Of a stretch of 64,000 nt of DNA, positions 30,472 through 33,458 are shown one piece after another. The stretch's first letter is position 1. Every line of letters starts with the position of its first letter. The notes below the pieces were generated by a model. It was not told the origin of the DNA. It did no database searches and saw only the letters and a list, made by a program, of their open reading frames with translations. Source of the stretch: Bacteroidota bacterium (GTDB taxonomy: Bacteria > Bacteroidota > Ignavibacteria > Kryptoniales > JAKASW01); assembly GCA_021811615.1 (NCBI GenBank), contig JAJZNW010000061.1, positions 62,001 to 126,000 of the forward strand. The letters are read 5' to 3'. The translations under genes were made by a program, and so were the position numbers.

Positions 30472-30501
30472 AATATATCCAATTTGCAGAATGATATGCA
30501 A
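30472..30501 (-). promoter_or_regulatory. Predicted promoter of the carbamoyltransferase unit, abutting the transposon
   Basis: Minus strand TTGCAT (30501-30496) and TATATT (30477-30472), 18 bases apart, lie 23 bases before the SxtJ-like start. The last two bases of the -35 box are part of the 8-bp target duplication, so the transposon entered right at the edge of this promoter. Confidence 0.6.
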
Positions 30502-30507
30502 AGTGCC
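30500..30507. repeat. Left target-site duplication (AAAGTGCC)
   Basis: The same eight bases occur immediately outside the right end of the transposon at 33451-33458. An 8-bp duplication fits IS1-family insertion. Confidence 0.9.
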
Positions 30508-30526
30508 GGTAGTGTCTCAGTTTGAA
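30508..30526. repeat. Left terminal inverted repeat of the transposon
   Basis: GGTAGTGTCTCAGTTTGAA; its exact reverse complement is at 33432-33450. The two ends diverge directly inside. Confidence 0.95.
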
Positions 30527-30547
30527 ATAGTTGTCCAAGCTGAATGC

Positions 30548-30576
30548 TTGACCGTTCAAGTACCGTTTCGTATCTT
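30548..30576 (+). promoter_or_regulatory. Predicted promoter of the H1-like gene
   Basis: TTGACC (30548-30553), 17 bases, TATCTT (30571-30576). The start codon at 30582 is only five bases past the -10 box, so the transcript would be leaderless or nearly so. That agrees with the lack of a ribosome site. Confidence 0.5.
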
Positions 30577-30611
30577 TCGGCATGAAGAAACCGAAAAGAC
30601 CGAAAGATACG
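30569..30611. repeat. 12-bp inverted repeat over the promoter and start codon
   Basis: CGTATCTTTCGG (30569-30580) and CCGAAAGATACG (30600-30611) are perfect complements separated by 19 bases that include the ATG of the H1-like gene. It could be an operator covering the -10 box or a hairpin masking the start codon. Confidence 0.75.
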
Positions 30612-30818
30612 AATCAGTTGGCTAAGAACGTTGTGGACTTAGCAACGGGTGAAGCACAGGAAGCGCAAACTAATAACGGCAAGAATCCCGCTGCTGTTGC
30701 TCTTGGAAGATTAGGCGGCTTAAAAGGGGGAAAGGCGAGAGCGAGAAAGCTTTCGAAAGCGCAACGGGTAAAGATCGCGAAAAAGGGGGCTGAGAAAAGG
30801 TGGAAATCGAGGAGGTAA
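30582..30818 (+). CDS. Histone-H1-like small basic protein (transposon passenger)
   Basis: 78 residues, very rich in Lys and Arg. The core NPAAVALGRLGGLKGGKARA is a widespread motif of small basic proteins often labelled histone-H1-like or nucleoid-associated; the tail (KLSKAQRVKIAKKGAEKRW) continues the Ala/Lys pattern. It may bind nucleic acid. No ribosome site is present; a predicted promoter ends five bases before the ATG. It is the first passenger from the left end of the transposon. Homologues of this type turn up often on mobile DNA, so its presence here is not surprising; its role is unknown. Confidence 0.75.
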   Translation: MKKPKRPKDTNQLAKNVVDLATGEAQEAQTNNGKNPAAVALGRLGGLKGGKARARKLSKAQRVKIAKKGAEKRWKSRR

Positions 30819-30829
30819 GCGGAGTGCGC

Positions 30830-31279
30830 TCAAGTCGAAATCCTAACGCGACCTGATTTCCCGTCGTACTCCATAGTCAAATCCTGCAAGAAAGTCCTTC
30901 CTAACAAAGCTTGGTGAAGCTGTCCACCTGCGACTAAATCAACTCCGGCGAATGTCCCATATTGAATAATGCGCAATGGAGGTACTGCAATTTGCGCCAG
31001 ATAAATGTTGGTCTTGTACTTACCAGCAATGCCCGCGATCTCACGACGGTCCACTACGGGTAGTTTAAGTACGCTGGCAAGCAGATTATCTATGCAGGAC
31101 TGTGCGGCTCCAGTGTCAACCAAAGCTTCCACGTCCGTGATAGCAGGCACCGGGTCCGTCGCACTGCCGGCCACCCAATTGGGATCAAATCCTATGCTGA
31201 CGGATATAGTAGGTCCGCGATAGATTAAGACTGCGTTCCCGTTAGGAAGGTTCTGGAAACCGCACTCTGTATCAGGCAT
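30830..31279 (-). CDS. Retropepsin-like aspartic protease (transposon passenger)
   Basis: 149 residues. ALVDTGAAQSCID carries the DTGA active-site motif of single-domain aspartic proteases, followed by a flap-like segment (IAGIAGKYKTNIYLAQIAVPPL) and LLGRTFLQDLTMEYDG, the second conserved block of bacterial retropepsin-like enzymes. Such enzymes work as dimers, each chain giving one Asp. The start overlaps the end of the DUF5678 gene by 8 bases, so the two are co-translated. Substrate unknown; no signal peptide, so it acts in the cytoplasm. Confidence 0.8.
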   Translation of the reverse strand: MPDTECGFQNLPNGNAVLIYRGPTISVSIGFDPNWVAGSATDPVPAITDVEALVDTGAAQSCIDNLLASVLKLPVVDRREIAGIAGKYKTNIYLAQIAVPPLRIIQYGTFAGVDLVAGGQLHQALLGRTFLQDLTMEYDGKSGRVRIST

Positions 31280-31514
31280 GTACGATGTTGTACATTACGG
31301 ATGCGGGAAGGACAACCGGAGGTGCTCCAACCTGCCTAATGAGATATGGGCCAGCACCAAACCTTTGGACAGCGTCGCGGGCCGCCGCTTCGAAGCTGTC
31401 ATATATCCCTGTGCGTTGCTGGTCATGAATGACCACCCACTTACCCATATAGGAAGTCTCCAGCTCTTCTCGCATTTGTTCATAAGCTTCGATTTCTTTT
31501 GTTAGGTCAGCCAT
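31272..31514 (-). CDS. DUF5678-like small protein (transposon passenger)
   Basis: 80 residues behind GAGGGAGATGAA, with a strong predicted promoter upstream. After a charged helix (EIEAYEQMREELETSY) comes GKWVVIHDQQRTGIYDSFEA, the DUF5678 core, and a segment ending in YLIRQVGAPPVVLP. This pair of small DUF5678 protein and retropepsin-like protease recurs in bacteria. The pairing and 8-base overlap suggest that the small protein is a partner or substrate of the protease. No function is established. Confidence 0.78.
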   Translation of the reverse strand: MADLTKEIEAYEQMREELETSYMGKWVVIHDQQRTGIYDSFEAAARDAVQRFGAGPYLIRQVGAPPVVLPASVMYNIVHA

Positions 31515-31532
31515 TTCATCTCCCTCATTGAA

Positions 31533-31561
31533 AATATACGGTTCCAGATAATGTTTGTCAA
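31533..31561 (-). promoter_or_regulatory. Predicted promoter of the DUF5678-protease pair
   Basis: Minus strand TTGACA (31561-31556), 17 bases, TATATT (31538-31533): a near-perfect -35/-10 pair 19 bases before the DUF5678 start. Confidence 0.75.
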
Positions 31562-31632
31562 CTCGTACACAGTGCGACTACCCACTATATCGGAATCGAA
31601 AACGAAAAGTTTAATCAAATTGAACTTTATGC

Positions 31633-31661
31633 TTGACTTCTCAAGCACCGCGTGCTATATT
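31633..31661 (+). promoter_or_regulatory. Predicted transposase promoter with flanking operator-like repeat
   Basis: TTGACT (31633-31638), 17 bases, TATATT (31656-31661). Inverted repeats TCAAGCAC (31641-31648) and GTGCTTGA (31662-31669) bracket the -10 box, a likely binding site for an autoregulator. The transposase ATG is 26 bases downstream behind GAGG. Confidence 0.72.
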
Positions 31662-31687
31662 GTGCTTGATGATAAAACGAGGTCAAC

Positions 31688-32518
31688 ATGAGTAACAGGC
31701 TTTCACTTGAGAAACGAACGCAGATAATCGGAATGCTCGTTGAAGGGAACAGTCTCCGTGCAATCTCCAGGCTTACCGGTGTGTCATTCAATACGGTTAC
31801 AAAGCTTCTCGTGGATGTGGGGACCGCTTGCCAAAAATACCACGATCAGAACGTCCGCAATTTGACCTCGAAACGTGTCCAGTGCGATGAAATATGGTCT
31901 TTTGTCTACGCCAAGGAAAAGAACCTGCCGGAGGAGATGCGCGGCCAATTCGGAGTAGGAAGCATTTGGACTTGGGTAGGTCTGGATTCTGATTCTAAAC
32001 TTGCAATCTCGTGGCTTGTCGGAAACCGCGATTCGGATTATGCACGAATATTCATGCAAGACGTTGCCGACCGGCTCAAGAACCGCGTACAGCTTACCAC
32101 AGATGGATTGAAAGCCTATTTAGAAGCGGTCGAGGATGCTTTCAATGGACAAATCGATTTCGCACAGTTAGTGAAGCTCTACGGCCCTTCATTGGATCCC
32201 GATCATAGATACACCCCTGCCGAATGCATTGCCACCGAAACGCACATAATAAGTGGACATCCCAACGAAAAGCACGTTTCAACAAGCTACATCGAAAGAC
32301 AAAACCTTACGATGCAGATGCAGATGCGGCGTTTCACACGCTTAACCAATGGCTTTAGCAAGAAGGTAGAGAACCACAAGCACGCAATTGCCTTGCATTT
32401 CATGTACTATAACTTTGTGCGGATTCACAAAACATTGCGCGTTACTCCCGCAATGGCCGCAGATATCACCAAAAAGCTTTGGAAAATCGAAGATTTGGCC
32501 CTTTTGCTGGAAGATTGA
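31688..32518 (+). CDS. IS1-family transposase
   Basis: 276 residues in a single frame, without the frameshift of classical IS1. The N-terminus holds a helix-turn-helix (NSLRAISRLTGVSFNTVTKLL). The DDE catalytic core shows D in QCDEIWSFV, D in LTTDGLKAYLEA and E in SYIERQNLTMQMQMRRFTR, the last being the IS1-type E(8)R(x)K region. It is the enzyme that moves the 2943-bp element in which it lies. The protein looks intact, and the 8-bp target duplication fits the family. It resembles the single-ORF IS1 subgroup first known from archaea and widespread in environmental bacteria; subgroup placement is from memory. Confidence 0.92.
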   Translation: MSNRLSLEKRTQIIGMLVEGNSLRAISRLTGVSFNTVTKLLVDVGTACQKYHDQNVRNLTSKRVQCDEIWSFVYAKEKNLPEEMRGQFGVGSIWTWVGLDSDSKLAISWLVGNRDSDYARIFMQDVADRLKNRVQLTTDGLKAYLEAVEDAFNGQIDFAQLVKLYGPSLDPDHRYTPAECIATETHIISGHPNEKHVSTSYIERQNLTMQMQMRRFTRLTNGFSKKVENHKHAIALHFMYYNFVRIHKTLRVTPAMAADITKKLWKIEDLALLLED

Positions 32519-32571
32519 AGGGGTGTACTTGACTTTCCCAGATCGTTTTGTTAACATTGTCCCGAAAGGAT

Positions 32572-32660
32572 GCTGAGGAAGCGGGAGTCGAACCCGCAAT
32601 GCCGCGTAGCATGACGAATTTTAAGTTCGTTGCCTGTATCCACTCAGGCATTTCCTCAGC
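32572..32660 (-). tRNA. tRNA-like gene, anticodon UAA (Leu), unusual acceptor region
   Basis: On the minus strand a cloverleaf is clear: D arm GCC...GGC with GAGTGG in the loop, anticodon stem ACGAA/TTCGT with loop CTTAAAA (anticodon UAA, reading UUA), a long variable arm ATGC...GCAT (class II, as in Leu), and T arm GCGGG TTCGACT CCCGC. The acceptor helix can extend to 9 bp (GCTGAGGAA with TTCCTCAGC). With a normal 7-bp acceptor (32658-32574), position 8 is A rather than the near-universal U and the discriminator is G rather than the A typical of Leu. No CCA is encoded. It lies inside the transposon, 53 bases past the transposase stop. Function as a tRNA is uncertain. Confidence 0.75.
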
Positions 32661-32697
32661 CGAAGTTCTTTGGGTAGATGCGAAAACGAAAATGTCA

Positions 32698-32719
32698 GCC
32701 TCACCCGTTAAGGTGAGGC
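32698..32719. terminator. Perfect hairpin between the tRNA-like gene and the right-end passenger
   Basis: GCCTCACC, CGTTAA loop, GGTGAGGC: an 8-bp stem. No T-tract follows on either strand, so it may be an RNA structure or protein site rather than a terminator. Confidence 0.4.
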
Positions 32720-32781
32720 GAAATTAGTAGTTTTAGCACGTTACTCATTAACCTGTCCTTTCATTTCGTTACGGTTTATTT

Positions 32782-32808
32782 AAGGGCTCCTTGCACGAGC
32801 CCTTTTTT
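32782..32808 (+). terminator. Rho-independent terminator
   Basis: AAGGGCTC (32782-32789), loop CTTGCAC, GAGCCCTT (32797-32804) followed by a T run to 32808. It would end plus-strand transcripts from the transposase. The same stem lies just past the stop of the minus-strand gene at 32807 and may serve both directions. Confidence 0.75.
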
Positions 32809-33205
32809 ATTGCTGTACTGGCTGGGGAATCGGCCTCAACTTATAGAACCCGCGACCACCCTTTTTCAGTGTCCCGTTTGGTTTCTTGGCGTTTAACGAC
32901 AAAATCGAGCGAACGGCCTTTGAAAACTGCTCACCCTTCTCTCCAATGCCCTTTTCAACGCTAAATTCAAAGATTTCGGAGACGCGAACGGCCCGATTTT
33001 CGCGTTGGATTAGCTCAACAGCAGCATCCAACACCTCCTTTGTTTTTGAATCGCCTTGTGGTTGCCTCAAAGGCTTGGGCTCGCTGAATTTTAATGGTAA
33101 CTGTGCGCGTTCATCGGTATCCCCGAGGAGTGTCAAAATTGCCGCTTCGCGCTTTCGGAGCAGCTCCAATTCAGCCTTCAGGTCAGCAAGTGTTTCTCGT
33201 TTCAT
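32807..33205 (-). CDS. Unknown transposon passenger with possible winged-helix domain
   Basis: 132 residues. The N-terminal 30 residues form a charged coiled coil (LADLKAELELLRKREAAI). Residues about 55-125 (KEVLDAAVELIQRENRAVRVSEIFEF ... KKGGRGFYKL) look like a small winged-helix fold of the HARE-HTH kind, ending in a G-G-x-G-F-Y wing. It has a strong predicted promoter with a palindrome over the -10 box, as expected for an autoregulated DNA-binding protein. It sits at the right end of the element. No family is recognised with confidence; regulator of the element's promoters is a guess. Confidence 0.68.
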   Translation of the reverse strand: MKRETLADLKAELELLRKREAAILTLLGDTDERAQLPLKFSEPKPLRQPQGDSKTKEVLDAAVELIQRENRAVRVSEIFEFSVEKGIGEKGEQFSKAVRSILSLNAKKPNGTLKKGGRGFYKLRPIPQPVQQ

Positions 33206-33224
33206 ATTCGCCTCTTAGCTTTCA

Positions 33225-33260
33225 TAGCGCAATATACGCTACTACGCTTATAAATGTCAA
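33225..33260 (-). promoter_or_regulatory. Predicted promoter with palindromic operator for the right-end passenger
   Basis: Minus strand TTGACA (33260-33255), 18 bases, TATATT (33236-33231). TAGCG and CGCTA (33225-33229, 33237-33241) form an inverted repeat around the -10 box. The remaining 170 bases to the right terminal repeat are rich in CGTT/AACG-type short inverted motifs but hold no gene. Confidence 0.7.
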
Positions 33261-33431
33261 TAGGTAATGCGGCGTTTCGTTAGGCGTAGTGGCGTTGTAT
33301 TGACAATGTAATGCGCAACGCGTTAGCGATAACACGGCGTTGCGCTTCAGGCTCAAGTAAACTATTGAAGCCATGCCGTTCGTTACGCATCGTGGTACAC
33401 TCCGGGGAATCTCCTCCTTTGACTACGTAAA

Positions 33432-33450
33432 TTCAAACTGAGACACTACC
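33432..33450. repeat. Right terminal inverted repeat of the transposon
   Basis: Exact reverse complement of 30508-30526. Confidence 0.95.
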
Positions 33451-33458
33451 AAAGTGCC
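33451..33458. repeat. Right target-site duplication (AAAGTGCC)
   Basis: Direct copy of 30500-30507. The following 128 bases up to the SGNH gene contain the A/T-rich TTATATAAGG, which may belong to that gene's promoter. Confidence 0.9.

Follow-up and report, generated by a model that had tools for sequence, protein, structure and literature searches.

Odd-anticodon tRNA genes beside small, probably DNA-binding proteins as a recurrent cargo of IS1-like transposons

The 64,000-nucleotide stretch of a Bacteroidota genome analysed here (contig JAJZNW010000061.1 of assembly GCA_021811615.1, hereafter the window) carries at positions 30508-33450 an inserted IS1-like transposon of 2,943 bp. Together with its relatives, this element forms a group defined by a transposase, a small basic protein of the KGG type (nearly always present) and a slot for exchangeable cargo. 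A recurrent cargo of this slot is a two-part module, made up of a small, probably DNA-binding protein and a tRNA with an odd anticodon. From this anatomy we infer a function: with a probability of about 0.4, the module would be an exchangeable cassette of the toxin-antitoxin or abortive-defence kind, in which a mis-decoding tRNA is the effector and the partner protein its control.

The insertion itself is well delimited (Table 1). An initial annotation, made from the sequence alone, had described a perfect 19-bp inverted repeat within an 8-bp target duplication around an element of about 2.9 kb, and this description was borne out: the terminal repeats match at 19/19 positions (left copy GGTAGTGTCTCAGTTTGAA), they are flanked on both sides by AAAGTGCC, and an empty site was found in the genome of a sister species of the same genus (G010). 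There, the sequences on either side of the insertion adjoin each other directly (87% identity over 4.4 kb) around one target site, CAAAGTACCG, and the window element had no match within the 6-kb stretch of G010 that spans this site. This shows a genuine insertion that took place after the two genomes diverged. The full element is present as one copy in its own genome assembly. Its transposase and ends, as well as the target duplication and empty site, likewise support the view of it as an IS1-like transposon with passenger genes.

As a check, the initial annotation had proposed to look for the same ends with the same or exchanged cargo at different sites, and 123 distinct complete elements with ends of this type were recovered, a complete element having paired ends and an 8-bp duplication with at most one mismatch. 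Transposase scans covered the best 80 of at least 576 relatives in species genomes and the best 80 of 216 in viral contigs, and among the species-genome matches listed the relatives span many phyla. In the first set, 103 elements were complete, 101 of them distinct; their sizes ran from 1.3 to 4.4 kb with a median of 3.1 kb. This set was enlarged by three more viral transposase scans and a few loci from other searches. Merging of identical transposase DNA reduced 271 transposase copies to 205 distinct ones, 123 of which lie in complete elements; the merged set includes loci found through other queries, among them L197 (through the partner family cl23, described below), and L158 and L170 (identical) as well as L167 and L169 (copies of L168) were left out.

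Twenty element tRNAs are known, one in the window and 19 in relatives. ARAGORN reported a tRNA in 10/123 complete elements and also in six partial ones, where it stands directly upstream of the transposase; searches starting from a partner protein later added four. Both element ends are known for 14 of the 20 carriers, and the target duplication is intact in 11 of these 14. With 41.9-68.1 bits, every one of the 19 tRNAs of relatives is at or above the gathering score of the Rfam tRNA family (29). Judged by its scores, the tRNA of the window element is also a real tRNA (RF00005, 37.4 bits, gathering 29), so that what the initial annotation had called a tRNA-like gene is one of a recurrent unusual set. 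It combines a Ser/Sec-like body with the Leu anticodon UAA: under two scoring schemes the body is nearest to Ser and then to Gly, with Leu not among the top listed, which led us to reject the ARAGORN label tRNA-Leu. It resembles tRNA-Sec in reaching the gathering score of RF01852 (47.8 bits vs 47), but its anticodon is UAA instead of UCA, and tRNA-Sec was rejected as well.

The anticodons of the relatives' tRNAs are equally irregular. Six carry UUA, which reads the stop codon UAA (L041, L095, L108, L114, L168 and L387; ARAGORN calls TAAA in L095, but the loop is the same CTTTAAA). By body typing, which was right for 63/99 reference tRNAs and is good for Ser and Leu only, four of these have Ser-type bodies (L041, L095, L108, L387) and two Leu-type bodies (L114, L168), and Ser-type bodies also bear UAA (window), UAG (L039) and UAU (L072). 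The anticodon arm of L041 is, by eye, one base off that of a tRNA-Ser(UGA) (L331) of genome G341. Five tRNAs place GCU or ACU, anticodons for Ser codons, on short-arm bodies of 74-78 nt (L066, L119, L429, L430, L222), whereas 21/21 reference tRNA-Ser are 84-96 nt long; body typing of the short-arm tRNAs was dropped as unreliable. In L037 ARAGORN called an 8-nt anticodon loop with UCCC; in L008 and L049 such a loop was read by eye, the ARAGORN call being a 7-nt loop. The remaining three (L054 and L390 with CGU, L163 with AGU) were given no class. Among 102 distinct host and flank tRNAs, a reference from which element tRNAs were removed by place only (5/137 calls), stop anticodons, four-base calls and short Ser bodies each numbered 0. 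In ARAGORN folds the class II element tRNAs have intact 7/5 acceptor/T arms; L072 adds one pair to its acceptor stem, and the window tRNA may also have additional pairs. Some of the genes (L041, L108) encode CCA. On the transposase tree, tRNA presence requires 16 changes for 18 tRNA rows among 133, and this scatter indicates that the cargo is gained and lost often.

Some further candidates were set aside. Relaxed ARAGORN thresholds gave mostly noise, and a UAU candidate obtained with them (L066, 6818-6911) was not confirmed by Rfam. The tRNAs near L007, L068, L081, L140, L184, L186 and L392, and a tRNA-Phe near L066, lie outside recognised ends.

Three protein families accompany these tRNAs: a coiled-coil plus probable winged-helix family (ccWH), to which the 132-aa protein of the window element belongs, cl23, and cl25, which is DUF5343. 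All three are probably DNA-binding; in the 132-aa protein the coiled coil and the probable winged helix were read by eye. Searches with the window ccWH protein gave no Pfam match above cut-off, no PADLOC match and no match in a phage collection. Comparison of sequences with those of solved structures brought nothing usable (lowest E 0.23 and 0.18), and PADLOC gave only weak matches for DUF5343 (PDC-M34A). A partner family is present in 8/10 tRNA-bearing and 9/113 tRNA-less complete elements (p=9e-7, an inflated value, the families having been chosen after the tRNA-bearing elements were known). Because of this choice after the fact, cl23 was searched by protein alone, in 296, 385 and 345 genomes. 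These searches yielded eight new cl23 loci with transposase and/or KGG genes (L197, L387, L388, L390, L392, L429, L430, L431), and a tRNA was found in 4/8 of them vs 10/123 in the background (p=0.005; 4/9 and p=0.008 if L432, with a mere transposase scrap, is counted). In total, 8/14 element-borne cl23 loci known here have a tRNA. At cl23 loci without a nearby KGG or transposase gene (L198, L199, L389, L391, L393-396, L433-435) no tRNA was found nearby, only 1.5 kb on each side being covered for L198 and L199. Among plasmids, cl23 gave one partial match.

The arrangement of partner and tRNA is regular within each family. The cl23 and tRNA genes are divergent in 8/8 pairs, about 170-285 bp apart by open-frame limits, while in 5/5 ccWH pairs (the partner in L049 was assigned by eye) and 2/2 cl25 pairs (7/7 together) both genes share a strand and the tRNA comes second. 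Two small adjacent genes in a fixed arrangement, as in toxin-antitoxin systems, are thus a regular feature of the module. In the window element the tRNA lies 148 bp downstream of the ccWH gene, and no promoter-like site was found on the tRNA strand within this gap.

At six loci a perfect hairpin with arms of 11-14 bp and a loop of 17-21 nt stands just upstream of the tRNA (L041 2844-2892, L095 5942-5982, L108 5921-5967, L387 5198-5241, L430 3719-3764, L390 5816-5854). The arm sequences vary between elements with pairing kept, and alignment of four ochre loci shows the hairpin followed, on one strand, by a run rich in T; the hairpin is possibly a terminator or a leader structure. At L423 (2883-3554; G871:C149) a DUF5343 gene match contains one in-frame TAA; the stretch analysed around it contained neither a transposase of the group nor a tRNA.

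We read the tRNA as a partner-controlled RNA effector because the cargo slot elsewhere holds toxin-antitoxin and defence genes and because a likely regulator adjoins the tRNA. Ser and Leu synthetases largely ignore the anticodon, and tRNAs with Ser- or Leu-type bodies should therefore stay charged and misread. To judge from their anticodons, the module tRNAs would misread the stop codon UAA, possibly the four-base codon GGGA, or sense codons of another amino acid. Under the proposed mechanism, each tRNA would be charged by the synthetase of its body type and, once expressed, would corrupt translation; the partner protein would repress its expression, which fits the divergent cl23 and tRNA genes, and release would follow loss of the partner or interference by a phage, so that carriage of the element would be rewarded or its loss punished. 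In the window version, a Ser/Sec-like tRNA downstream of the ccWH protein would read the Leu codon UUA. A broader proposal, which we put forward tentatively and consider doubtful, is that of a new selfish or defence module by which transposons would spread suppressor tRNAs (nonsense, missense and possibly four-base) as RNA effectors, restrained by a divergent or upstream DNA-binding partner, the cassette being exchanged among IS1-like elements of many phyla.

Several observations weigh against the effector reading, in addition to the after-the-fact choice of families and the modest accuracy of body typing given above. No tRNA was found at 6/14 element-borne cl23 loci (L005, L009, L197, L388, L392, L431). 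When 396 genomes were searched for cl25, 13 new matches appeared, and in 12/12 of the loci examined the gene lay outside elements and had no tRNA. A tree-controlled test of the partner-tRNA pair was not significant (median p 0.22). Some short-arm tRNAs (L049, L066, L222) have poor anticodon stems, and tRNAs are not denser in the elements than around them (10 in 374 kb vs 44 in 834 kb of flanks, many of the 44 standing in tRNA arrays). Finally, UUA makes up 12/70 Leu codons of the window element, and a Ser-charged UUA reader would for this reason harm the element too.

The odd loops and poor stems would also suit an RNA that does not decode at all. As a ligand or decoy, the tRNA could bind the partner or a nuclease, such as an anticodon nuclease of host or phage, and regulate or neutralise it; a partner adjoining the tRNA in a fixed arrangement would be expected here too, and a review reports that UAU allo-tRNAs are inactive in E. 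coli and guesses them to be parts of transposons or toxin-antitoxin systems (PMC7609411). We consider this unlikely, as all 19 tRNAs of relatives score as tRNAs, the class II ones fold with intact arms, CCA is encoded in some genes, and it is the anticodon that is changed, on Ser and Leu bodies that should still be charged. If the tRNAs do decode, no poisoning would be needed for the element to be kept: a host that accumulates nonsense or missense mutations could become addicted to the suppressor and unable to lose the element. The ochre, GCU and possible four-base types do resemble informational suppressors, and the transposase and partner genes of the ochre elements do not need ochre reading. 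None of the five ochre-element transposases examined has an internal stop; four terminate at TGA and one at TAA with a 2-codon extension. The partner genes end in TAA in 3/4 (extensions of 0-8 codons) and in TGA in the fourth, so that recoding of these own genes was rejected as an explanation. Addiction of this kind leaves the partner protein unexplained, and we hold it to be distinctly unlikely.

A supply of codons, as with phage tRNAs, would have the element bring a tRNA for codons that its host seldom uses. The window tRNA reads UUA, and UUA accounts for 17% of Leu codons in the element genes vs 1.4% (23/1645) in 37 long open reading frames elsewhere in the window. We regard this as quite improbable: the body of the tRNA is Ser/Sec-like and not Leu-like, six relatives read a stop, the five transposases examined lack an internal one, and a high share of UUA may be no more than a sign that the element came recently from a host richer in A+T. 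If the tRNA genes had been captured from hosts by chance and were now in decay, this would agree with a tRNA density no higher than in the flanks, with the weak anticodon stems and with the low score of the window tRNA (37.4 bits). Captured genes should bear ordinary anticodons, whereas stop anticodons occur in 6/20 element tRNAs vs 0/102 host and flank tRNAs, and the same protein families are paired with the tRNAs repeatedly and in the same arrangement, making this a very improbable account.

The element tRNAs share features with several known systems. According to a review, allo-tRNAs combine Ser-type bodies and a long variable arm with a wide choice of anticodons, among them ochre and UAU; one is reported to overlap a transposon-related open reading frame, and those with UAU have been suspected of being parts of transposons or of toxin-antitoxin systems (PMC7609411). 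Element tRNAs likewise include Ser-type bodies with a long variable arm and varied anticodons, ochre and UAU among them. They differ from allo-tRNAs in lying inside defined transposons beside a partner gene and in their arms, which are 7/5 in the class II element tRNAs (with the one further acceptor pair of L072) instead of 8/4 or 9/3; with ordinary 7/5 arms they are therefore not allo-tRNAs by definition. Cassettes of the HigBA, RmrTA-like, PD-Lambda-2-like and SocA-Panacea types resemble the module in consisting of two small adjacent genes, and such genes are cargo of relatives, but the tRNA module has no recognised protein toxin. The 8-nt loop with UCCC recalls tRNAs of the sufD type, which are +1 frameshift suppressors, while the element tRNAs with this loop are natural, transposon-borne and putative four-base readers. 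No report of IS1-like elements with suppressor tRNAs was found in the open-licence papers searched. The module gives odd, apparently mis-decoding tRNAs, so far seen mainly in metagenomes (PMC7609411), a concrete genetic home, and the suspicion of a transposon or toxin-antitoxin origin can now be tied to a transposon with defined ends and to partner genes. If the tRNAs were effectors, mistranslation would serve as a weapon or addiction device outside the toxin-antitoxin types known to us.

The transposase of the window element matches PF03400 at 27.1 bits (cut-off 24.1) across 41 residues only and scores 63.6 bits against NF033558, under the cut-off of 100; its plasmid homologues carry the label 'IS1 family transposase' (e.g. 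H1-H3). A bare IS1 element is about 0.8 kb long, and classic IS1 encodes its transposase in two frames joined by a programmed frameshift, a single frame being normal for a subgroup. Here the transposase is one open frame of 276 codons, not the classic two-frame arrangement. Between the ends lie genes unrelated to transposition (for the protease, the 80-aa protein, the tRNA and the ccWH protein), as in an IS1 'transporter IS', which the element also resembles in its single-frame IS1-like DDE transposase, its terminal inverted repeats and its 8-bp target duplication. Inverted terminal repeats and a target duplication of 8-9 bp are features of the IS1 family at large, and the element has both. 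It departs from that type in its size of 2.9 kb, its near-universal KGG protein gene and a cargo that includes a tRNA. We take the ISMhu11-type grouping to comprise the single-frame, passenger-carrying members of IS1.

Table 1. Features of the IS1-like transposon and its insertion site, in window coordinates
Feature	Position	Strand	Basis
Left target-site duplication, 8 bp, AAAGTGCC	30500..30507	none	mirrored by right copy; empty site in sister species
Left terminal inverted repeat, 19 bp	30508..30526	+	ends of this type also in 123 distinct complete relatives
Core basic protein, KGG-type, 78 aa	30582..30818	+	family in 115/123 distinct complete elements
Cargo: retropepsin-like (clan AA) aspartic protease, 149 aa	30830..31279	-	PF13975, 28.3 bits (cut-off 28.2)
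Cargo: 80-aa protein, overlaps protease start	31272..31514	-	open reading frame
IS1-like DDE transposase, 276 aa, single frame	31688..32518	+	PF03400, NF033558, plasmid homologues
Cargo: tRNA, anticodon UAA, long variable arm, Ser/Sec-like body	32572..32658	-	ARAGORN, Rfam
Cargo: 132-aa coiled-coil plus probable winged-helix protein (ccWH)	32807..33205	-	iterated profile search; upstream of tRNA
Right terminal inverted repeat, 19 bp	33432..33450	-	complement of left repeat
Right target-site duplication, 8 bp, AAAGTGCC	33451..33458	none	mirrored by left copy; empty site in sister species

Five non-transposase genes had initially been counted as cargo. For the others this holds, but the H1-like basic protein proved to be a core gene: a protein of this KGG type stands at the left end of 115/123 distinct complete elements (97/101 in the first, smaller set), and it is therefore not cargo but core machinery or an accessory factor, so that a core protein can now be named for a large group of IS1-like transposons. 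The window protein has no Pfam match, and that of a plasmid relative is annotated 'histone H1'. Of the proposed protease/DUF5678 pair, the protease was confirmed through PF13975 (its TIGR03698 score was under that model's cut-off), whereas the 80-aa protein had no DUF5678 match in Pfam at E<=1; neither had a homologue in the other element neighbourhoods searched. Nor could a strong promoter be upheld for each gene, as the six consensus matches in the element do not differ significantly from a shuffled mean of 3.2 (sd 2.0); four of the six do sit just upstream of gene starts, namely those of the basic protein, the 80-aa protein, the transposase and the 132-aa protein.

In the relatives, variable cargo sits between the basic protein and the transposase, or to the right of the transposase. 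Annotation of representatives of the larger cargo clusters gave a helix-turn-helix plus M78 gene (PADLOC RmrA, PD-Lambda-2_B), a HigB-type toxin, SocA-Panacea and a ClpP-like protease, and a RES/Xre pair adjoins a plasmid transposase. By these predicted functions the slot often holds toxin-antitoxin or defence-type genes, and new defence systems could be sought there.

The genes of the window element (window 30582-33205) have a G+C content of 47.9% vs 53.9% in the whole window, and this lower value together with the raised UUA share perhaps reflects recent arrival from another, A+T-richer host. Elsewhere in the window's genome, locus L019 (G000:C87:4584-7763) has ends of the same type and a short transposase scrap, and is likely the remnant of a related element. 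The same genome contains a tRNA-Asp-like gene, recognised by eye, with an abnormal 3' half (L359 139-232; G000:C9:5338-5431; 31.4 bits), which is perhaps an integration scar. In L018 (60-3391) and L026 (G049:C1:79328-85659), two IS1-like elements seemingly stand back to back, with the 8-bp AAATATTC between their ends. A DUF3800-IX RNA (RF02968, 50 bits; L184 13927-13990) is found at a distance of some kb from an IS1-like element.

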